In this document: one piece after another, positions 4,921 to 36,450 of the stretch | Layout: each line of letters starts with the position of its first letter | Position numbering within the stretch: the first letter of the stretch is position 1 | Virus record (IMG/VR): IMGVR_UViG_3300044712_002254 | Location: 1-36,901 of that record | DNA: 36,901 nt | Source of the DNA: a virus | Direction: 5' to 3' (one strand) | Made by a program: the position numbers and the translations under genes | The notes under the pieces: generated by a model | Databases searched by the model: none | The model's input: only the letters and a program-made list of their open reading frames with translations | What the model was told of the DNA's origin: nothing

Positions 4921-6348
4921 TTAGAGGTACAGGTCTATCACGGCTGCGAATACATGCAGGCCGGGCACCACCGGCGCCGGGATGCGGGCGTTCAACTGGC
5001 CGACATTCTGCAGGTCCTTCTCGACGATGAGCTGGTCCTTGTACGAGTCGATATCGTCCCATATCTCCAGGAGCTCGAGCTTGTACATGACGTCGAGGAT
5101 CTCGCCGCGCACCTTCTGGATCGTCTTCCCCTTGGTGCTGATCTTGTTGCGCGGGAAGCGCAGCGCAATGCGCTCGCGGATCGCCTTTCGCCCGTAATCG
5201 AGGCTGGTGATGGTGGTGGCGTCCAAAAGCGAAACGTCGGGGATGCCCTGGGGGTTGAGGGTGTATGTGGAGATGAGGCGGACGATCTGGACCCTTTCGC
5301 CGGGTCCGACCTCCAGGGGGGTTATGCCGTTGTGGAGGCAGCTCTCCTGCTCGGTGCGCGACAGCCGCTGGTCGATGGCCGGTGCGGCAATGGTGACCAG
5401 GGCCAGGGTATTGAGGGGCCGGGCCGGGTCGGGCTCGCGGCACCAGACGGCTGCCAGCGCGGCGGCGACCTCGTAGGCCGGGGAGATGGATGCGCGGATC
5501 AGACCGCCGAACAGCCTGCCGTCGTCGATCTGCCCGGCCAGGGTGGTGGAGGACGCCAGGGACCCGGTGAGGCCGAATACGCCGACGCCGGGGCGCTGCT
5601 CCAGCGGGCCGGAGACATTGGCCAGGTGGTTGCGCAGGGCGGTGAGGCTGGTCTGGTCGTTGTAGGGGGTGGCGACCTTGTTGTACTCGTTGGCGTATAC
5701 CTTGGCCAGGGCCGTGGTGATGTCCGGATCGGTGGCGCCGTTGGCCATGGTGACGATGGCGGCTGTGACGCCCGCCGCGGTGCACCTGGATGTGAGGAGG
5801 ACCTGGTTGCCGACCGCTCCCTTGTGCCGGTAGGTGAGGGTGACGACGTTGGCGTTGACCGCATTGGTGACCGGCAGCGCGGCCTCGTTGCCCAGGGCGG
5901 TGTTGAGCGCCGCTGCGATGGCGTTCTGGGCATCGCCGCTGGCAATGGCGATCTCAACCCGGCGGCTGCCGATATAGAGGTCAAGGATGCCGGGGCCGGT
6001 GGCCGGGCCGGTGATGGTAATTGTGCCGGTGGCCTGGGCGCCCGCCGCGTTGTCGTTAAGTGCGCAGACGGTGAGATCCAGGTAAGGATTCTCGGCGATG
6101 GCGGTCTTGACCATCAGGTGGGCCATGGAGCCTGCGCCGAAGTACCCGGCGGCCTGGGCCTCGCTGAATACCTGGGTGGGGACCAGGGCGTTGACTGTGC
6201 CGGTGGCCAGCCGCTGTGCTATTATCAGCATCTTCTGGGCGTTGTCCGGCAGGGTGGAGACCGCGTTGGCGGTGTTGTACTCCAGGTACTGGCCGGGCTT
6301 CCTTACCCCTGCCGGAATCTGTGAAAACTGAACATTCTGGGAACTCAA
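4921..6348 (-). CDS. Contractile tail sheath protein (Mu L-like)
   Basis: 475 residues, normal for the Mu L family. The N-terminus (QNVQFSQIPAGVRKPGQYLE) and the recurrent AAGYFGAGSMAHLM and YDYGRKAI-type segments fit the sheath family. The C-terminal part (TIQKVRGEILDVMYKLELLE and the last strand IDLYL) matches the conserved sheath C-terminus. The start codon is TTG at 6348; no ATG fits. A strong AAAGGAGG lies about 7 bases upstream, and the TTGA overlaps the stop of the DUF2635 gene, so the TTG start is well supported. The sheath contracts to drive the tube through the envelope. Confidence 0.9.
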   Translation of the reverse strand: MSSQNVQFSQIPAGVRKPGQYLEYNTANAVSTLPDNAQKMLIIAQRLATGTVNALVPTQVFSEAQAAGYFGAGSMAHLMVKTAIAENPYLDLTVCALNDNAAGAQATGTITITGPATGPGILDLYIGSRRVEIAIASGDAQNAIAAALNTALGNEAALPVTNAVNANVVTLTYRHKGAVGNQVLLTSRCTAAGVTAAIVTMANGATDPDITTALAKVYANEYNKVATPYNDQTSLTALRNHLANVSGPLEQRPGVGVFGLTGSLASSTTLAGQIDDGRLFGGLIRASISPAYEVAAALAAVWCREPDPARPLNTLALVTIAAPAIDQRLSRTEQESCLHNGITPLEVGPGERVQIVRLISTYTLNPQGIPDVSLLDATTITSLDYGRKAIRERIALRFPRNKISTKGKTIQKVRGEILDVMYKLELLEIWDDIDSYKDQLIVEKDLQNVGQLNARIPAPVVPGLHVFAAVIDLYL

Positions 6349-6539
6349 ACGGCACCTCCTTTGTCCTTGGCCGGCGGCGCCGGTCTGTCGTCGCCGCAGA
6401 CGACGAGCGAGCCGTCGTCCACCAGGCGCCGGTAAAAGATCGAATCGTCAGGGACCTCCACCGGTTTGTCGGCGGTGATATATTCCCTGGGCTTCCCTTC
6501 CATCGGGCATCGTTCGCCCGGCTGCGCTTTGACTATCAT
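6345..6539 (-). CDS. DUF2635 family small tail protein (Mu gp38-like)
   Basis: 64 residues: MIVKAQPGERCPMEGKPREY, then a D..FYRRLVDDGSLVV core. This matches the short DUF2635 proteins that sit just upstream of the sheath gene in Mu-like phages (Mu gp38). The function is unknown; the position suggests a tail assembly factor. The start ATG at 6539 follows an AAGGAGG-type site. It is coupled to the sheath gene by the TTGA overlap at 6345-6348. It directly follows the block of large exported-looking proteins, which has no counterpart between Mu gp37 and gp38. Confidence 0.8.
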   Translation of the reverse strand: MIVKAQPGERCPMEGKPREYITADKPVEVPDDSIFYRRLVDDGSLVVCGDDRPAPPAKDKGGAV

Positions 6540-6562: not shown

Positions 6563-8551
6563 TTAATGCGTTATCGTGCATCCCCTGCAGCCGCTGTCGG
6601 CGCCGAGTGCCATGACCGGGGTGACCTGGGGCAGAGTGATCGTCGTTGACTGGGTACTGGCGTTACTCACGTTCCCCGCCGCATCCCGCGCCCAGGCGTA
6701 CCATGTGACCGCACCGGAACTGGAGGCGGTTGCTGTAGCCGGGGCCGATCCGGACCAGGAACAGCCGGAACTGGAGTTTGTGGTTGTAATGCAATAGCCC
6801 GTTACTGCCGTGTCATCCGTGGCGGTGAACGATGATACGTTGACGGTCAGGCTGGTAGCAGTTGATGGCATGGTGAAAGCCGTGATGGTTGGAGGGGTGG
6901 TGTCTCCGCCGCTCAAATTGTCCGTAATCGTCACTGCACTAATACCGTATGCTGCGCTGGTATTCGCCCCGCTAATAAACGCGCCTATTCCCGGCTGGCC
7001 TGTCGAATGGAGGTTGCTGTTATCAGTGTAATTGATAACGACGGTTTCCGTCCCATTGCGTATCTGCGAGCATGTGATATGATTGCCGACGACCTTCCCC
7101 CGCCATATATCCCCGGTCTGTGGTGTATACCCGCCTGTCCCGGTGGCCAGTGATGTGTACGACCCAACCGAGCCATTCCACGAAACAAGTTCACTGCCAC
7201 CCCCGCCGTTGAGAAGGCACTCGTAACCGGCAGTCGTAGTCGAGCCCTTCGTCATTCTCAAAAGAACTTCTATCTCCCCGGCATGGGCAGCATCGTTCAC
7301 TTTGATAGTGGATGACACTTGCTGATCATCCTGGAAACCAGTCTGTAGCGCATAACTGTCTGAATAATAACTGGTGCCTGGCTGCGTTCCAGTCGCAAAC
7401 CCCGCACTTGTAACGGCGATATTTGTCCAGTCGGACCCGGCATTTACCCACGCGCCCGATTCGGACAGCGGGTTTTCTACTGTTTGGAATGTGGTGGTAT
7501 AGGTTTTATATGGGCTGGCAGCAACAGCAACTGTAACTGCCTGCCCTGTTGAATTGGCGTTGCTACTACCATCAATACAGCGAACGTAATAGGTGGTAGA
7601 ACTGCCGTTAGTCAGCCCCGAAAGAGTCTGACTGTGACTGGTCGTGCCAGTTGTTGAGAATGTATTAGGGAGACTGGCATATGCGACATCTGAGGTGCCG
7701 TATTTACAGGTGGCGTTCTCGTCCGTCGTCAATGACATATTGGTTGACGTGGTGCCGTAGGCTAGTGTACCAGTTGGATTTGTGACCGTAATAACAGGAG
7801 CCGTGGAATCCGTGCCGATTCCCAAAAATGAATCAACCTCGGCTTTTGTAGAGGCTATAACGACATCATCGAAATAGGTAGACTGGTTGCCCCACCCATC
7901 CCTAGATTGGTAGCCGAAAACAAACTGGTTGCCATCTCCTGAGTCAAAGGAAGTTCCGTTGTATTGTGGGGAACCGGACCACGTTATCAGCGTCCCATCA
8001 TACCACCCCTGAAGCGTTCCCCCAGCCGGATTGATGTACCACACGAAAGAGTGCCACGACGTATCATTCAGCCACGCACTTTGGGACGAATCGGGCAGGT
8101 TGGTGGAACAATAGCCATACGATGATGATTCCCCCAAACGGTTAAAAAGACATACTGCATTTCCATAATGCGACAACATATTTCGCTTCCCGCCCACCTG
8201 TGGGAAATATATCCACTTATCCTGATTATCCGGCCCCCACACCCACCCTGAAGAGTGCCGCCACCAATAGCCGACATAGACCGCGCCTAGTCCGGCAGTT
8301 GCACTGTAGGGGGAGGCTATGCCATAACTTGCAATCCCGGTTGACCAATCATATCGTAACCCCATCCCTGTTTTGCCGAGGCTGTCAGCGATTTGCCCGG
8401 ATCCACAGGGGTTGCAAAAATACTCATCCCACGGAGAGGGCGGATCACCGGCTGTATATACCCAGTTAGTTGAAAAGTGGTCACTGAAATAGACCGTGGC
8501 GTTCGCCGTGGTGTTTATTAACAGGATTATGATTATTAAATATTTTTTCAT
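6563..8551 (-). CDS. Large secreted-looking protein with LamG-like and Ig/FN3-like domains
   Basis: 662 residues when started at the ATG at 8551, which overlaps the upstream stop (ATGA, 8548-8551). A further ATG at 8569 is open in frame but less likely. It begins MKKYLIIIILLINTTANA, a textbook Sec signal peptide. Residues about 25-235 look like a concanavalin/LamG-type jelly roll, rich in Trp and Tyr. Two Ig/FN3-like modules follow, each starting near a D(S/T)(T/A)(P/A)P motif (DSTAPVITVTNPTG and DTTPPTITAFTMPS). A second jelly-roll-like stretch lies between them. Such modules usually bind or cleave polysaccharide. It could be a tail-spike or capsule-binding protein, or a host-type exported adhesin carried as cargo. 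I recognise no specific family. Confidence 0.6.
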   Translation of the reverse strand: MKKYLIIIILLINTTANATVYFSDHFSTNWVYTAGDPPSPWDEYFCNPCGSGQIADSLGKTGMGLRYDWSTGIASYGIASPYSATAGLGAVYVGYWWRHSSGWVWGPDNQDKWIYFPQVGGKRNMLSHYGNAVCLFNRLGESSSYGYCSTNLPDSSQSAWLNDTSWHSFVWYINPAGGTLQGWYDGTLITWSGSPQYNGTSFDSGDGNQFVFGYQSRDGWGNQSTYFDDVVIASTKAEVDSFLGIGTDSTAPVITVTNPTGTLAYGTTSTNMSLTTDENATCKYGTSDVAYASLPNTFSTTGTTSHSQTLSGLTNGSSTTYYVRCIDGSSNANSTGQAVTVAVAASPYKTYTTTFQTVENPLSESGAWVNAGSDWTNIAVTSAGFATGTQPGTSYYSDSYALQTGFQDDQQVSSTIKVNDAAHAGEIEVLLRMTKGSTTTAGYECLLNGGGGSELVSWNGSVGSYTSLATGTGGYTPQTGDIWRGKVVGNHITCSQIRNGTETVVINYTDNSNLHSTGQPGIGAFISGANTSAAYGISAVTITDNLSGGDTTPPTITAFTMPSTATSLTVNVSSFTATDDTAVTGYCITTTNSSSGCSWSGSAPATATASSSGAVTWYAWARDAAGNVSNASTQSTTITLPQVTPVMALGADSGCRGCTITH

Positions 8552-9486
8552 TGTGCGGTCACATGCCACCTGATAAGTTTATTTTCGTTAACCTCTGTAC
8601 CAGCTGGGAGTGTGGCGGGGAATGTCCCCTGGTTTGTAACGTAAGCAGATTCCCCACTAGACCCCGTTTGATAACTCCAATGCACTGTACTTGTCCCAGA
8701 GGGCGTAAGGAGCGCCGGTTTATAGACAGTGCCGCCGGTGCATGTGCAAGTGCCTGTGACTGATGATGTCACCTTCCACGATGGGGTACTCTCATAGGCT
8801 GTGAGGCTGACTGACCCTGAACATACAAGGGTGTTCCCATCCTGAGTGTATAGTGCAAGTGACGCTAGAGGTGTAGAGCCATCCCCGTAGCCATAAAACT
8901 CAGCCTTATCGAGTGTTCTGGTCCCGGTACCGGGGCATGTATAGGTCGTTTGAAGGGCAGATGATAATGTCTTGTAATATATGAGAACTTGGCCTGATCC
9001 ATTATCATCGCTGCTTGCCCCTGCAGTAGTCTGCATCCCGAAATATGCTGCAGCCTGACCGGCCGCTGCCGTCGTAACCGTATAAGTATCGCTCACCCCG
9101 CCGATTGTCACCACGTCGTTGACCGCCGTTGATGCGCTGGAGGATGATGTTATCCTTGCCATCACATATTGATTGTTTGTGATGTTACCCGGCGAGGTGG
9201 AGAATGAGCCGCATGTGCCTACAGTCGTCCCTGTGCAAATTGCCACCGTACCGCCGCTGGAGGTTACGGCAGATGCCGCGTTGATACCGGTTATCTGTAC
9301 CGCTGAACTGGTGTACTCCGTCGAAGTCGTGGCGCCTGTTGTGTCGGTGAAAGAGAAGGCGTCCGGGGTGGTGTCTGAGGTATTCTGAGCGACGATGACC
9401 CCCCGGATCTGGCCAGTGATGGCAGCGGAGGCGATGCAGGGGATAACGACGATCAACCCGATGATAAATGATTTAAGCATTTTCAT
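8548..9486 (-). CDS. Secreted-looking Ser/Thr-rich protein of unknown function
   Basis: 312 residues from the ATG at 9486, two bases after the TAA of the upstream fibre gene. It begins MKMLKSFIIGLIVVIPCIASAA, a clear Sec signal peptide with an AXA cleavage site. The mature part is rich in Ser, Thr, Gly and Ala with scattered Cys (VAICTGTTVGTCGSF, TYTCPGTGTRTLDKAEFYGYG, TGTCTCTGGTVY). It looks like beta-sandwich surface protein. The open frame extends upstream to 9672, but that part has no signal character and lies inside the neighbour, so the shorter start is preferred. The protein sits between two other signal-peptide proteins in one coupled block. Function unknown; a tail-tip or adhesin role is a guess. 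Confidence 0.55.
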   Translation of the reverse strand: MKMLKSFIIGLIVVIPCIASAAITGQIRGVIVAQNTSDTTPDAFSFTDTTGATTSTEYTSSAVQITGINAASAVTSSGGTVAICTGTTVGTCGSFSTSPGNITNNQYVMARITSSSSASTAVNDVVTIGGVSDTYTVTTAAAGQAAAYFGMQTTAGASSDDNGSGQVLIYYKTLSSALQTTYTCPGTGTRTLDKAEFYGYGDGSTPLASLALYTQDGNTLVCSGSVSLTAYESTPSWKVTSSVTGTCTCTGGTVYKPALLTPSGTSTVHWSYQTGSSGESAYVTNQGTFPATLPAGTEVNENKLIRWHVTAQ

Positions 9487-9487
9487 A

Positions 9488-12400
9488 TTAGCTCCCGCAG
9501 CTCCAGCCTTTAGCCGTCGCCAGCCATGACCCGGAGGCCCTGTATTGCAGTACCACGGCATCGCCGGTGGTGCCCGAATTGTAGATATCGTACCCGGCAG
9601 AGCAGGCCGTGCCGTTGAGGTAGATGACCTCGGAGCCGTTGGGATTGAGACGTGCGACCCCGGTCCCTTCAACGGTTACCGTCAGGTTCATCCCTGCCGC
9701 GACGGCCGGGAGATTGCCGGTCCCTGCCGCGTTGGCGATCCAGGTCCCGCCGTACATCCCCGCCCCGCTCATAGTCCAGTTGTCCGGGTCATTGATGGTG
9801 GGTGTTGCCGCGTACTGGACGGTATGGCCATAAGTGGCCAGGCCACCCGATGAGTCAACGGCATTTCCTGCCGCCGTGATAAACCCGGTTCCCTCATCCG
9901 TTAAAGCAGAACCTAAATTCGTCAAAGATGGCGTGGTTAAAAACGTCCTGACCCCTGAAGCCATAGTGAACCATGACAATTGGCCCACGTGGGATGAGAA
10001 AGAAGACACGTATGGCAAGCCTTCTGGTGAAGGCTCGGTTGTCCAAACATGAAGGCCGAAATCGTTGTCGGGCTCTGCGGCGGGGTTATCCAGGTAGAAG
10101 CCCCGCCCATTTGTGCCGTATCCGCGCCAGCGGAAAAGGTCCGGGGTTGTAGATGCCTGCTGGGGGGTGCTTAGGCTGGCCGCGGTGAGGTTGCCGTTGT
10201 CGTCCACGGTGGCGGCCGAACTCTGGATAGTCGCTCCGCCGGTGCCGTCGGCGCGGATGATTCTGTTGTCAGTGGAGCCCGTGGAGCCGCCGATGGAACC
10301 CGCGCCAAATGCCGTGTTGGTGCCATTGTGGCAATAATAGGGGACGCCGGCCACGAAGTTTATGCCGTAGACGCCCGCGCCGCATGTGTAGGAGCTGGTG
10401 TTGTTGCCAAGCGCCATGCCGTATGTGCCGTCTGATCCGGCCGGGAAGTATGAGTTGAAGGTGGAGGTGTTTAGTTTCTCCGCCAGGCCGGTGTCCACGT
10501 AGGCGGTGCTGGCGGCCTGGGTGGAGTTGTTCCCCTGGCTGGCCGTGGGGACCGTGGGTGTGCCGGTAAAGGCCGGGCTGGCCAGGTTGGCCTTTGTTGT
10601 ATCGGACGGGTGGACGTGATCGGCGCGGGCATAGAGGTTGCTCGATCCGGCCGCCTGGCTGCCGTTCATGGCGATGGTCCCGGCGGTGGAGTTGCCCTGG
10701 CCGAGGACGAAGGCGGTAGAGGCCGCCTGGGTGGTGTTGGTATTGGCGGCCGCCGTCGGCACGGTCGGGGTGCCGGTAAAGGCGGGAGAGGCCAGGTTGG
10801 CCTTTGCCGTATCGGACGGGTGGACGTGATCGGCGCGGGCATAGAGGTTGCTCGATCCGGCCGCCTGGCTGCCGTTCATGGCGATGGTCCCGGCGGTGGA
10901 GTTGCCCTGGCCCAGGACGAAGGCGGTGCTGGCCGCCTGGGTGGTGTTGGTATTGGCGGCCGCCGTCGGCACCGTCGGGGTGCCGGTGAAACCGGGTGAG
11001 GCGAGCGGGGCCTTGAGCGACAGGTCGGTGGTCAGGTTGCTGACGTCGGACTCGCCGATGGCCAGGAGCGCCTTGGCCTGGGCCACGGTCAGGTCAGCCG
11101 GGGCGGCCGCGGACCCGGTGTTGTTCCCTTTGAAGGTATTGGCCGGCATGTTGGCCAGCTTCAGGTTGTTGACCGCGCCGTCGGTGATGGAGGCGGTGGC
11201 GTTGCCCGGACCGGAAGCGGTGATGGCCCCGGTCAGCCCGGTGACATAGTTGCCGGTGGCCTGCTTGCCCGCCAGGCCGGTGTCCACGTAGGCGGTGCTG
11301 GCGGCCTGGGTGGAGTTGTTCCCCTGGCTGGCCGTGGGGACCGTGGGGGTACCGGTGAAAGCGGGGCTAGCCAGCGCGGCGCGGGTGCTGTCGGTCGGGT
11401 GGACATGGTCGGCGCGGGCATAGCGGAGGCTGGTGCCGGGGGCTGCCGTGCCGTCAATTACCGGGTTAGCCGAAGCTGCCTGGCCAACCACGTAGGCTGT
11501 AGAGGCGATCTGGGTGGTGTTGGTGTCTGCCGAGGCTGTGGGCGTGGTCGGTGTGCCGGTTATGGCCGGGGAGGTCAGGCTCTTGTTGGTCAGCGTCTGG
11601 GTGTCGGTAGTGCCGACAATGGCCCCGGAGGGCACTGCCACGGAATTGCCCCAGGCGCCGCCAGTAGAAACTGGTATCCCAGACGAGGGATAGACCATGC
11701 TGCCGCCCCCTTCGCCGGAGCCGCAGTCAGCTCCGGTGCCGCTCACTCTCCCCAGGGCGTCCACGTGGAGACACTGCACTGCGCCCGTGATGGCGAAGGT
11801 GGGGGTGCCCGTAAATGTCGGGTTGTTGATCGGCGCCTTGGCCGCCAAATCATTGACCAGGTTGGTAATGTCCGCCTGGCCAAGGACGATGTCGCCGGTA
11901 CGCCCGGCCACCGTCTGAATCGGAGCGGCGGCGGCTGCACGCTGCTGGGTGAAGTATTGGTTGCTCCCCTCGGGCACCACGCTGGTGTTGAGCGTCGCCA
12001 TTATTTTGTCGCCACGGATATACTGGAGGGATGTCCCCGGCGTGATGGCCGGCTCCTGGGCGACATCGAGGACATGTGAAAGACCGACGTCGTCCGCAGT
12101 CAATGAGACATTCCCGACCTTGCCGGCGACCGACTGGACCGGCGCGGCGGCGGCGGCGCGGGGCGATGTGAAATAGAGGTTCGTCCCTTCAGGCACGGCG
12201 CTGGTGTTCAGCGTCGCCATTACCTTGTCGCCACGGATATACTGGAGAGATGTCCCCGCCGTTATCGCCGGTTCCTGTGCGATGTCGAGGACATGGGAGA
12301 GCCCCACCTGGTTTTTCGATAGCCCGGTGAGCTGTGAGCCGTCGCCATTGGTGGCAAGCCAGGTGCCTCCATTGACTAGGCTGTAGAGCTGCGCCTTTTC

Positions 12401-12823
12401 AGCGGCGGTGTAAGCCTTGTTGACCGAGCCGTCGACAATAAAGTCGGCGCTCATGTTGCCGGTCTGGTTCGCCCGGACGAAGGGGCTGGAGTGGATACCG
12501 GTGGGGTCATAGACCGAGGCGTACATGTCGCCGCCGGTGCCGCTGCCGGGCCATGCGTTACCGTTCCAGAGGGGCTGGCCGCCCGACTCGGTGATTTTGG
12601 CAAGGGTCGCGCCGAGGATCAGGCTCTTTAGCGAGCCGATGGTAACGGTCCGGTCCCTGAGACCTTCAGGCTGGCTGGCATCGTAGAAAAGCGTATAGGC
12701 CCCGGTGGAGGGATTAGAGAGGGCCGGGTAACGGACCTGGTCGAGGATGGACCCGGCAAAGGCCGCCGCCGCGAAAACGATGATGGCCCCCAAGGCCGCC
12801 GCTAATCTGGATGTATGCCTCAT
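9488..12823 (-). CDS. Long tail-fibre-like protein with an N-terminal signal peptide and tandem repeats
   Basis: 1,111 residues. The first ~23 residues (basic start, [18 protein letters not shown]) look like a Sec signal peptide, odd for a phage fibre. Two ~74-residue repeats follow (GLSHVLD(I/V)AQEPAIT units with YIRGDK). Then comes a fibre shaft built from [26 protein letters not shown] and [12 protein letters not shown] motifs, known from tail fibres (phage_fiber_2-like). The C-terminal ~250 residues are unique and end with a Cys-containing sequence ([15 protein letters not shown]). Two shaft units are nearly identical 210-bp tandem copies. The start ATG overlaps the previous stop (ATGA, 12820-12823) and has GGGAG upstream. 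The likely role is receptor binding. Confidence 0.7.
10581..11000. repeat. Tandem 210-bp repeat in the fibre gene
   Basis: Two adjacent, almost identical 210-bp units (about 10,581-10,790 and 10,791-11,000) encode 70-residue shaft units containing [20 protein letters not shown] and YARADHVHP. They differ at only a few bases. Near identity at DNA level suggests recent duplication or homogenisation, and a site where fibre length can change by slippage or recombination. Related but more diverged units lie at about 10,480-10,580 and 11,270-11,400. Confidence 0.85.
11930..12330. repeat. Diverged tandem repeat near the fibre N-terminus
   Basis: Two diverged ~220-bp units encode the repeated GLSHVLDxAQEPAIT / [19 protein letters not shown] / VPEG(T/S)N(L/Q)YFT sequence, followed by RAAAAAP(V/I)Q(S/T)VAG. 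They lie just after the signal-peptide region of the fibre protein. The units resemble repeated stalk modules seen in other tail fibres. Confidence 0.7.
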
Positions 12824-13287
12824 TGCTGTTCTCCCGAATCGGTAAGGACCTCGCCGGTGGAGTCAGTGAATACCTCTCCGGTGGAATCCATGATGATGGC
12901 CTGGTCGCTGACGAGCTGCCTGCCGGTGACGAATTCGAACCAGGTGAGGGCCGAGCCGTCGCCGCTGGGGAGAGGCCTGGTTACCTGGTGGCGGCGGGGA
13001 TCGCCGTCGAGCTTCCAGCGGAAACAGTATTGCAGGGAATCGACCCCCCTGTCGGTGGGCCACAGCCTGGTGGTGAACTCCCCCGCCTGGAGCAGTTGCC
13101 CTGCGGAAGCCGCCACGGTGATCCTGCGCGGCCGCGAGAGGATATGATCGCCGCTGAACTTGTCCTGGGTATCGGCGGGGCGGCCGCTGCCGTCCACCAG
13201 CTCCACCACCATGGTGAAGCCGCCCAGGGCCGTGCCGTCGTTGTCGACAAAGGGCGTGCCGTGATTTGTCAGCTCCCTGGTGGTCAA
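12820..13287 (-). CDS. Small protein at the head of the fibre block, unknown function
   Basis: 155 residues starting at a TTG (13287) that overlaps the stop of the tail terminator gene (TTGA), with a G-rich site upstream. The sequence ([20 protein letters not shown], then [17 protein letters not shown]) suggests a beta-rich domain, with a short acidic repeat ([20 protein letters not shown]) at its end. It has no signal peptide, unlike the three genes after it. It may be a baseplate or fibre-attachment adaptor that joins the exported-looking fibre proteins to the tail, but this is inference from position. No family recognised. Confidence 0.55.
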
Positions 13288-13823
13288 CTAATGCCCCCTA
13301 TCTCCACGATATCCTCGGCGTCCATTACGTCGTCCCCAGGCTTGAGGAAATACTGGAGGGCGATGGAGATGAGATCCGTCTCGTCATCGTCCGGCAGGAT
13401 CTGGAGGTTGAAGGACGTGGAGAACGTGAGATCGTAGACGATCCTGTTCTGCTTGAAGTCCTCTTCCGTGGTGACGTCCTTGAAGGTGACCGGGATAAGA
13501 TCGGTGATGGCCAGTCCGAAACGCTGGCGGGCCAGGGACTGCATGACCGCCATGATGAGCGGGTTGACCTTGTCCCGACGGGCCTCCTCGCCGTCCGCCC
13601 TGGTGAGGCCGATCTGCACATGGACGGGGCAGTCGGCCCTGAATATAAGGCGGCCGATCCTGGTCAGTTTGCCGTCGAAGATGGCGACCGCCACCGACGG
13701 GTCGGTGAATATGTATCGCTGGTTCTGCTGCCGCCGGGCCGCCTTGAACTCCTCGATCTTGCGGACAAGCCATTCCTCGATGGCAATCTCAATGTCGGTG
13801 GGGCTTTTGACCGGGATAGGCAT
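13284..13823 (-). CDS. Mu gp37-like tail terminator (DUF1834)
   Basis: 179 residues. The core contains SPTDIEIAIEEWLVRKIEEF, then MAVMQSLARQRFGLAITDLIPVT and late motifs typical of the DUF1834/gp37 family in Mu-like phages. These proteins cap the tail tube at the head-proximal end. The gene starts one base after the DUF1320 stop and is coupled to the following small gene. Family call is by synteny (after DUF1320) and sequence character. Confidence 0.78.
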   Translation of the reverse strand: MPIPVKSPTDIEIAIEEWLVRKIEEFKAARRQQNQRYIFTDPSVAVAIFDGKLTRIGRLIFRADCPVHVQIGLTRADGEEARRDKVNPLIMAVMQSLARQRFGLAITDLIPVTFKDVTTEEDFKQNRIVYDLTFSTSFNLQILPDDDETDLISIALQYFLKPGDDVMDAEDIVEIGGIS

Positions 13824-23474: not shown

Positions 23475-23803
23475 CCCTTCTTTATTTGTTCTGGCACTTT
23501 TCCGCCTGCTCCAGGAGCCGGGTCAACGCCGATTCCGAGAGCAGCCAGCCGCTGTTCGGTGCTGCCTGTCCCTGCTGGAGCCGCACCGCCTTTGCCTCCG
23601 GCATTATCACCGGCGGCTTGTGAGAGCACCCGGTCGATGCGAGCGGAAACAGCATCAGCGTCGCAATTAATAATATTTTCCCTACCGAGCTGGATGGCAT
23701 CTGCTCTCCTCTCCGCCACGGCTTCGGCGGATTCGTGGTGGTCGGCCCACGCCTTGACCAGGGCAAGCAGGCCGACGATGATCTGGAGGATGACTGCGGT
23801 CAC
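23471..23803 (-). CDS. Putative inner-membrane spanin (Rz-like)
   Basis: 110 residues from a GTG that overlaps the holin stop (GTGA). One N-terminal transmembrane segment (TAVILQIIVGLLALVKAWAD) is followed by a periplasmic helical part (EAVAERRADAIQLGRENI, then DAVSARIDRVLSQAA) and a Gly/Pro-rich end. This is the layout of an i-spanin, which spans the periplasm and joins an outer-membrane lipoprotein to fuse the membranes at lysis. A second frame inside it encodes a small lipoprotein, as in Rz/Rz1 pairs. Sequence similarity to known Rz is not obvious, so the call depends on architecture and position after endolysin and holin. Confidence 0.65.
   Translation of the reverse strand: MTAVILQIIVGLLALVKAWADHHESAEAVAERRADAIQLGRENIINCDADAVSARIDRVLSQAAGDNAGGKGGAAPAGTGSTEQRLAALGIGVDPAPGAGGKVPEQIKKG
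23482..23700 (-). CDS. Putative outer-membrane spanin lipoprotein (Rz1-like) nested in the Rz-like gene
   Basis: 72 residues, wholly inside the Rz-like gene in another frame. The ATG at 23700 has a strong GGAGAG five bases upstream. The N-terminus (MPSSSVGKILLIATLMLFPL) is a signal sequence ending in a lipobox (LASTGC), so Cys about 24 would be lipidated. The mature part is short with Pro (HKPPVIMPEAKAVRLQQGQA). Embedded or overlapping Rz1 genes are well known in tailed phages of Gram-negative hosts. Confidence 0.72.
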   Translation of the reverse strand: MPSSSVGKILLIATLMLFPLASTGCSHKPPVIMPEAKAVRLQQGQAAPNSGWLLSESALTRLLEQAEKCQNK

Positions 23804-35731: not shown

Positions 35732-36076
35732 ATGAACCGTAGATTGCAAATAGGCCAGCGGATCAAGACGATCCGGAAAAGGCTGCGCCTGAGCCAGAAG
35801 GAGCTCGCGGAGAATTTGGGTGTCTCTGCAGGGGCTGTGTCTACCTATGAACTCGGCGACGCATACCCGTCAATTGAGACCCTGGCCAAGATCGCCCGCC
35901 TGGGCGGAGAAACGTTTAACTGGCTGATTATGGGCGAACAATTGCGTTCAGATGGGGAGGAGATCACTGAGCTGGAGAAGTATCTGCTGGAACAATTCCG
36001 GGCGGCGACAGAGGAAGGCCAGGAGCTGATCGTGCGGGTGGCGGAGATGGCAGCGAAGGAGAGGAGGGGGAGATGA
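35732..36076 (+). CDS. Phage repressor-like XRE protein 2
   Basis: 114 residues from the ATG at 35732; GGAGG five bases upstream favours it over the ATG at 35723. The helix-turn-helix is clear (LSQKELAENLGVSAGAVSTY), followed by a LAKIARLGGETFNWLIMGEQ segment typical of XRE repressors. A C-terminal amphipathic helix (TELEKYLLEQFRAATEEGQE) may dimerise. It is unusual to have two such genes side by side; one may control lysogeny and the other the lipoprotein gene it overlaps (ATGA, 36073-36076). Confidence 0.8.
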   Translation: MNRRLQIGQRIKTIRKRLRLSQKELAENLGVSAGAVSTYELGDAYPSIETLAKIARLGGETFNWLIMGEQLRSDGEEITELEKYLLEQFRAATEEGQELIVRVAEMAAKERRGR

Positions 36077-36450
36077 GAAGGCTGGTTGCAGCTTTGTTTA
36101 TGGTGCTTGCAATTTCCGGTTGTGGCTTCTCTGAATATCGGGAAAAGGAAAAAGCCCTCTCAAAGTCTGCAATTGAATCAGTACAAAAATCTGAAAGTGT
36201 TGTAAAAGGAACAAATACTCTTAATATCCTTGCACTTACCTTAAAATTAATAGAAAGTAGCGGGAAATATGTTAAGGTGGATGGATGGTCATGTGATAAA
36301 AATATAAAAGATGACTGTTACGATGTATGGTTTTCCGTGGCAATCAATGAAATCGATCAAAAGTACCATTGGATAATCAAAGGAAACGAGCTTATACCGG
36401 CAAATGATCTAGCTCAAACAGTTACAATCCGTCAAATGATCACGTTGTAA
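36073..36450 (+). CDS. Putative lipoprotein (possible lysogenic conversion gene)
   Basis: 125 residues. The N-terminus (MRRLVAALFMVLAISGCGFS) is a lipoprotein signal with lipobox LAISGC, so Cys 17 would be lipidated. The mature part has Lys-rich helices and a pair of Cys (WSCDKNIKDDCYDVWF). Base composition falls to AT-rich in the mature part, unlike the repressor before it. Co-expressed with repressor 2, it would be made in the lysogen, which suits a superinfection-exclusion or other conversion role. This is inference; no family recognised. Confidence 0.65.
   Translation: MRRLVAALFMVLAISGCGFSEYREKEKALSKSAIESVQKSESVVKGTNTLNILALTLKLIESSGKYVKVDGWSCDKNIKDDCYDVWFSVAINEIDQKYHWIIKGNELIPANDLAQTVTIRQMITL

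Follow-up and report, generated by a model that had tools for sequence, protein, structure and literature searches.

Why should consecutive genes of a phage tail operon encode proteins with export signals? Morphogenesis of tailed phages is taken to be wholly cytoplasmic. The question is raised by three genes of a Mu-like phage, here designated g1, g2 and g3, whose products start with predicted Sec-type signal peptides (SPs). The genes reside in IMG/VR record IMGVR_UViG_3300044712_002254, a partial virus record of 36,901 bases with nearly all genes on the minus strand, which was analysed over its whole length (subsequently designated the window). The answer that we tentatively favour, judging from the sequence, is that the three proteins may be exported through Sec, fold in the periplasm and become released at lysis, and that fibre parts then dock on virions.

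Three consecutive genes of the tail operon carry predicted Sec signal peptides

SPs were called by a rule that requires a positive n-region, an uncharged h-region of 9 residues with a mean Kyte-Doolittle value of at least 2.2, and small residues at positions -3/-1. Under this rule, the three SP-bearing genes reported by a first-pass annotation of the window held in their coordinates and SPs, and all start with ATG; each leader comprises an n-region, a hydrophobic core and an AxA-type site of the signal peptidase I (SPase-I) type. None of the window's other tail and head genes passed, and the remaining hits in the window were a 65-aa open reading frame (ORF) at 23800 and a lipoprotein-like gene at 36073. 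For comparison, about 90 related loci were gathered by a sheath search. Across the 79 distinct loci used for counting, 1 of 522 core structural genes passed the rule versus 49 of 1056 other genes. An AxA-type motif followed the core in 42 of the 54 ORFs with an SP-like n/h region in related loci, whereas 27.3 were expected from shuffles (p 4e-5) and 23 were counted in a stretch further downstream. Both the presence of three canonical SPs against such a low background in core genes and the enrichment of the cleavage motif argue for export.

Chance hydrophobic N-termini or wrong start codons are a highly implausible explanation, given that three of three consecutive genes with ATG starts carry an SP against the 1/522 background, and that the leader architecture is conserved across a six-member spike family. 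Lipoprotein (SPase-II) and Tat leaders were rejected as well, as the leaders of g1-g3 lack an RR motif and the cysteine (Cys) of g2 sits in VIPC, not in a lipobox. The mature parts of g1, g2 and g3 contain 6, 6 and 12 Cys residues, respectively, and these even numbers are in favour of export. The Cys excess in SP proteins is modest (1.06 versus 0.73 per 100 aa, p 0.008).

The window phage encodes a Mu-type DDE transposase (PHROG 310, E 7e-143), terminase, portal, Mu-type head proteins, gp36 (PF07030), a gp37-like protein, DUF2635, sheath, tube, tape measure and hub; as in phage Mu and Mu-like prophages, head and tail genes are found in Mu order. The gene for the Mu gp36-like head-tail adaptor lies beside the gp37-like gene, and the block, DUF2635 and sheath follow. 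Mu is not known to carry additional genes in the gp37-gp38 interval or SPs on its fibres, whereas this slot in the window accommodates a candidate adaptor and three SP proteins. The first-pass annotation had located the block between the tail terminator and DUF2635; the gp37-like gene and DUF2635 indeed form its borders, but it had missed a fourth member, a 155-aa gene without SP upstream of g1, which overlaps g1 by 4 bases (ATGA) and whose product has neither a PHROG nor a Pfam match. Successive starts and stops in the block overlap by 4 bases or stand a base or two apart. A search of 6563-13287, with promoters sought by the sigma-70 consensus only, detected neither promoter-like nor terminator-like sites on the minus strand. 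The idea of an independent moron was rejected because the start/stop overlaps couple the genes and this search found no site on the coding strand.

SP-bearing fibres and spikes recur in related prophages

Matches of g1 to many tail-fibre PHROGs (E 1e-43 for the best named tail-fibre family), together with classical fibre repeats, identify it as a tail fibre by profile, as the first-pass annotation had stated for one of the three proteins. Tail fibres of named phages (Rhodobacter and similar phages) match g1 in the repeat regions only, and its N-terminal region shares the motif TESGGxPLWxGxxWP with the SP-fibres of loci L033 and L045.

SP-bearing fibres and beta-helix spikes recur at three operon positions in related prophages, which we take as further support for export. 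SP proteins occupy the same slot between gp37 and DUF2635 in L023/L038, L039 and, by inspection, L027; SP-fibres are encoded between gp45 and gp46 in L033, L045 and L140; and SP-spikes are found at the 3' end of the operon. Several SP-spikes have beta-helix, pectate-lyase-like or tailspike matches, and for two of them no relatives were found among named phages. The loci L033, L045, L054, L067, L068, L081, L140, L150, L152, L239, L240 and L241 resemble the window in that a Sec-type leader is followed by a fibre or beta-helix spike, in most cases with a small SP-less anchor upstream. They differ from it in that these genes occupy the gp45-gp46 interval or the operon's 3' end instead of the slot between gp37 and DUF2635, and their similarity to g1 does not extend beyond the short N-terminal motif.

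A short, separate baseplate-anchor gene without SP (motif DGLFHxGNPxxGxKGTxVTAxWLNA) precedes the 3' SP-spikes. Split anchors of this kind were seen in 11 distinct loci (L039, L140, L150, L151=L033, L152, L153=L068, L155=L045, L162=L081, L168=L067, L239 and L241), and in all 11 the next gene encodes an SP-spike, whereas the fused anchor-spikes of five phages (L009, L035, L036, L047, L108) are all without SP. The exact count of 11:0 versus 0:5 corresponds to a p of about 2e-4 for classes defined after the data were seen, and this pairing also speaks for the reading we favour. Elsewhere in the virus collection, an SP was present on 0 of about 60 anchor-bearing fibres. A general rule that a short anchor implies an SP-spike was rejected, since outside this lineage, in L207, L208, L220 and L223, the gene next to the short anchor lacks an SP; the link is valid for this lineage only, as far as the surveyed loci tell. 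A single protein unites SP and anchor in both L054 and L240. In L241, which has an anchor of a second type, the SP is placed exactly at the start of five SP-less relatives (MMFKRALFTLLILLLPVTAMA^GKTVF versus M-GKTVF). This position matches the expectation for an added, cleaved export signal and adds to the case for export.

Readable downstream flanks of SP-spikes contain an adenine-methylase-like gene or nothing, whereas a gene of 115-213 aa that resembles fibre chaperones (family judged by eye, without a profile) is located downstream of many SP-less fibres. The lack of a chaperone-like gene in the readable SP-spike flanks, by the same visual judgement, points in the same direction.

The gp37-like-DUF2635 slot holds differing accessory surface-protein cassettes in related loci, some of which lack SPs (Table 1). 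In L057, three consecutive overlapping SP genes (446, 194 and 565 aa; the last one Cys-rich) are present between the capsid gene and gp36, in parallel to the window's block. A possible fibre-switching cassette is seen in L011, where the gene for a fragment of an SP-fibre (103 aa) precedes those for a serine-recombinase-like and a lipoprotein-like Ig protein. In the prophages L162, L168, L140 and L152, a DNA adenine-methylase-like gene is found regularly after the last fibre gene.

g2 and g3 resemble mosaics of modules from exported host proteins

The protein g2 contains an immunoglobulin (Ig)-like module at about residues 35-145, which is present in 19 of 271 genomes of the closest relative's bacterial class and in one phage contig. 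Four modules were delineated in g3: a polysaccharide-lyase-like jelly roll (residues ~19-245), an Ig/FN3-like module with a Cys pair (252-345), a second LamG-like module (347-545) and an Ig-like module (550-642). The LamG- and Ig-like modules claimed by the first-pass annotation are thereby borne out for g3 through its relatives. The first domain shares 41% identity with an exported protein in host polysaccharide cluster L136, the first Ig-like module 53% with a module in L138 and the second LamG-like module 34% with L139. In a profile search with g3 and its host relatives, glucuronan lyase A (2zzj) was matched with E 5e-5; g3 alone has no Pfam match, while its host relatives match PF21294 and PF14099 in a test for polysaccharide lyase family 14/20-like domains. 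Matches to g3 occur in 100 of the 271 class genomes, and the type of its last Ig-like module is found in most of those 100. The exported LamG/Ig proteins of L136, L137, L138 and L139 resemble g3 in possessing an SP or a long hydrophobic leader and the same modules at 34-53% identity. They differ in being encoded among glycosyltransferase genes outside phage operons, L136-L139 being glycosyltransferase/exopolysaccharide clusters as judged by inspecting their genes.

No similarity to tail-fibre profiles was detected for g2 and g3: g3 matches no PHROG, g2 matches one weak unnamed family, and neither has a Pfam match. Relatives of g3 were absent among named phages, and single-sequence structure prediction of its N-terminus was uninformative (predicted local distance difference test, pLDDT, 33.5). 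The G+C content of g2 and g3 is ~51% versus 60-66% around them, which fits recent capture; the data fit a predicted origin of both proteins as mosaics of modules from exported host proteins. An exchanged host cassette fused to fibre modules, one of the origins considered by the first-pass annotation, is therefore well supported for g2 and g3. The block illustrates how phages may recruit host surface-protein modules.

Leaders occur on head-adjacent and capsid proteins of the same lineage

A family of SP proteins of 130-150 aa with two invariant Cys residues and a predicted beta-sandwich is encoded between the major capsid gene and gp36. Both Cys residues are kept in 8/8 diverged copies, and this invariant pair is again in favour of export. 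Structure prediction was of moderate confidence (pLDDT 76) with weak fold matches; the protein is possibly a head decoration or a fibre. Predicted SPs are a trait of this phage lineage, being found on spikes, baseplate fibres, small head-adjacent proteins and some major capsid proteins, which the first-pass annotation had not foreseen.

The capsid leaders, by contrast, head the observations that weigh against export. The usual start of Mu gpT-like major capsid proteins is MIVN, but a hydrophobic SP-like leader of 32-44 residues stands in front of it in 4 distinct phages out of some 30 that have this capsid type; the leader of L067 is preceded by a strong ribosome-binding site, and the match to the capsid profile starts at residue 46 in this protein. 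Since the cytoplasm is where capsids have to form around DNA, an SP-like leader need not signify export; leaders in this phage group may also point to assembly tethered at the membrane, or folding may outrun them. Several SP-spikes have odd Cys counts, so even parity is not general, and because parity fails in these spikes and the Cys excess is modest, disulfides are no proven reason for export. In addition, only position ties g2 and g3 to the virion, the 155-aa candidate adaptor of the window has no detectable relative among the surveyed loci, and export cannot be proven from sequence alone.

A model of export and docking, and its alternatives

In the model that we favour, g1-g3 would be late proteins of the Mu-like phage that are exported through the host Sec pathway. 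g1 would represent the distal part of a fibre, and g2 and g3 would provide polysaccharide- or matrix-binding modules captured from exported host proteins. All three would reach their folded state in the periplasm, where disulfides probably form, to be freed by cell lysis. Subsequently, g1, perhaps together with g2 and g3, would dock on virions that left the cytoplasm bearing only an anchor protein, which in the window may be the 155-aa product. Export, disulfides and post-lysis docking are what we infer from the predicted SPs and their distribution. It is rather doubtful whether the entire lineage completes its virions outside the cytoplasm, with fibres and spikes as separate Sec substrates that are folded and oxidized in the periplasm and attached to cytoplasm-assembled particles after lysis.

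Alternatively, the leaders could be real or remnant signals on virion parts that are not exported, because folding and assembly outpace Sec or because the leader serves as an inner-membrane tether and is kept or trimmed there. The capsid leaders of L067 (=L025), L073, L066 and L047 are readily explained in this way, and so are the anchor-bearing SP-fibres of L054, L240 and L241, which otherwise must locate the baseplate after lysis. We regard this possibility as a close rival, if somewhat less likely in view of the enriched cleavage motifs, the addition of one SP (L241) exactly at the mature start, the pairing of split anchors with SP-spikes and the two invariant Cys residues of the small head-adjacent SP protein. 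Slightly less likely again, but still a close rival, is the reading that the proteins are exported late and never enter the virion, acting as free or cell-surface binders or degraders of polysaccharides that loosen the host matrix for progeny exit or stop re-adsorption to debris. Such a role would suit the glucuronan-lyase-like N-terminus of g3 with its resemblance to exported proteins of host exopolysaccharide clusters, and also the beta-helix, pectate-lyase-like or tailspike matches of SP-spikes, but g1 has classical fibre repeats and the baseplate-anchor domains on several SP proteins would be of no use to a free enzyme.

The first-pass annotation had also considered host-surface adhesins made by the prophage, which would give the living lysogen an altered surface, with effects on adhesion or superinfection exclusion. 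Some support comes from the modules of g2 and g3, which are those of host surface proteins, and from the precedent of lambda lom, a gene among the tail genes that encodes an exported outer-membrane conversion protein. Lysogenic conversion is nonetheless improbable, since the start/stop overlaps bind the block to the late operon without an internal minus-strand promoter or terminator of the type searched for, and the large SP proteins of relatives are mostly fibres or spikes. Export at lysis, likewise suggested there, fits the comparative pattern of SP-fibres and SP-spikes. All three options of the first-pass annotation thus find some support.

Relation to known systems

In contrast to the products of lambda lom and other exported morons, g1 is a fibre in its own right, and no separate promoter was found in its block. 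Effectors of extracellular contractile injection systems (eCIS), such as the Photorhabdus virulence cassettes (PVC), likewise have an N-terminal targeting sequence on a protein encoded with a contractile tail, but these signals load payload into the tube (PMC11495950), whereas the leaders in the window are SPs with the n-h-c organization of Sec substrates. No earlier report of Sec signals on tail fibres was found in a search of open-access literature. The occurrence of SPs on fibres, spikes, baseplate-anchored fibre proteins and capsid proteins in one lineage suggests post-lysis maturation, membrane-linked assembly or exported matrix enzymes.

Genomic context

The host of the window phage probably is a Geobacter/Desulfuromonadia-type bacterium, because the nearest sheath relative (80% identity) derives from a Deltaproteobacteria metagenome-assembled genome. 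The left end of the window truncates the operon past the first baseplate genes, and therefore the customary 3' fibre region is outside view.

Table 1. Coordinates of features in the window and in related loci
Feature	Position	Strand	Basis
g1, 1111-aa tail fibre with Sec SP	9488..12823	-	SP rule, tail-fibre PHROGs
SP of g1, predicted cut after A23 (next residue G)	12755..12823	-	SP rule
g2, 312 aa, SP and Ig-like module	8548..9486	-	SP rule, module search
SP of g2, MKMLKSFIIGLIVVIPCIASA^A	9424..9486	-	SP rule
g3, 662 aa, SP and four modules	6563..8551	-	SP rule, relatives of modules
SP of g3, MKKYLIIIILLINTTANA^T	8498..8551	-	SP rule
155-aa gene without SP, candidate adaptor/anchor for g1	12820..13287	-	ORF list; role suggested by position
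gp37-like neck/tail gene, opens block	13284..13823	-	PHROG 490, position, homologues in related loci
DUF2635 / Mu gp38-like gene, closes block	6345..6539	-	precedes sheath in most related loci too
Tail sheath, landmark for locating related loci	4921..6348	-	PHROG 165, E 2e-155
Small head-adjacent SP proteins	L008:8305-8742, L033:8287-8709, L034:3911-4321, L039:7788-8183, L045:8346-8762, L050:7310-7729, L068:8139-8534, L108:6399-6797		
Capsid proteins with leader	L067:7280-8338 (L067=L025), L073:7414-8463, L066:6771-7793, L047 (=L048; first 334-aa major capsid protein ORF; start uncertain)		
Cassettes in the gp37-like-DUF2635 slot	L035:6309-9691, L036:6366-9700, L023:8458-12265, L027:5899-8732		
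Three overlapping SP genes	L057:3427-7042		
Candidate fibre-switching cassette	L011:2727-4980		
DNA adenine-methylase-like genes	L162:6391-7161, L168:6293-7057, L140:3460-4230, L152:6457-7230		
Lipoprotein-like gene	36073-36450	+	
Repressor-like helix-turn-helix gene	35732-36076		

The lipoprotein-like gene that passed the SP rule at the other side of the window (MRRLVAALFMVLAISGC...) is located in the low-G+C right end, where it adjoins the repressor-like helix-turn-helix gene.

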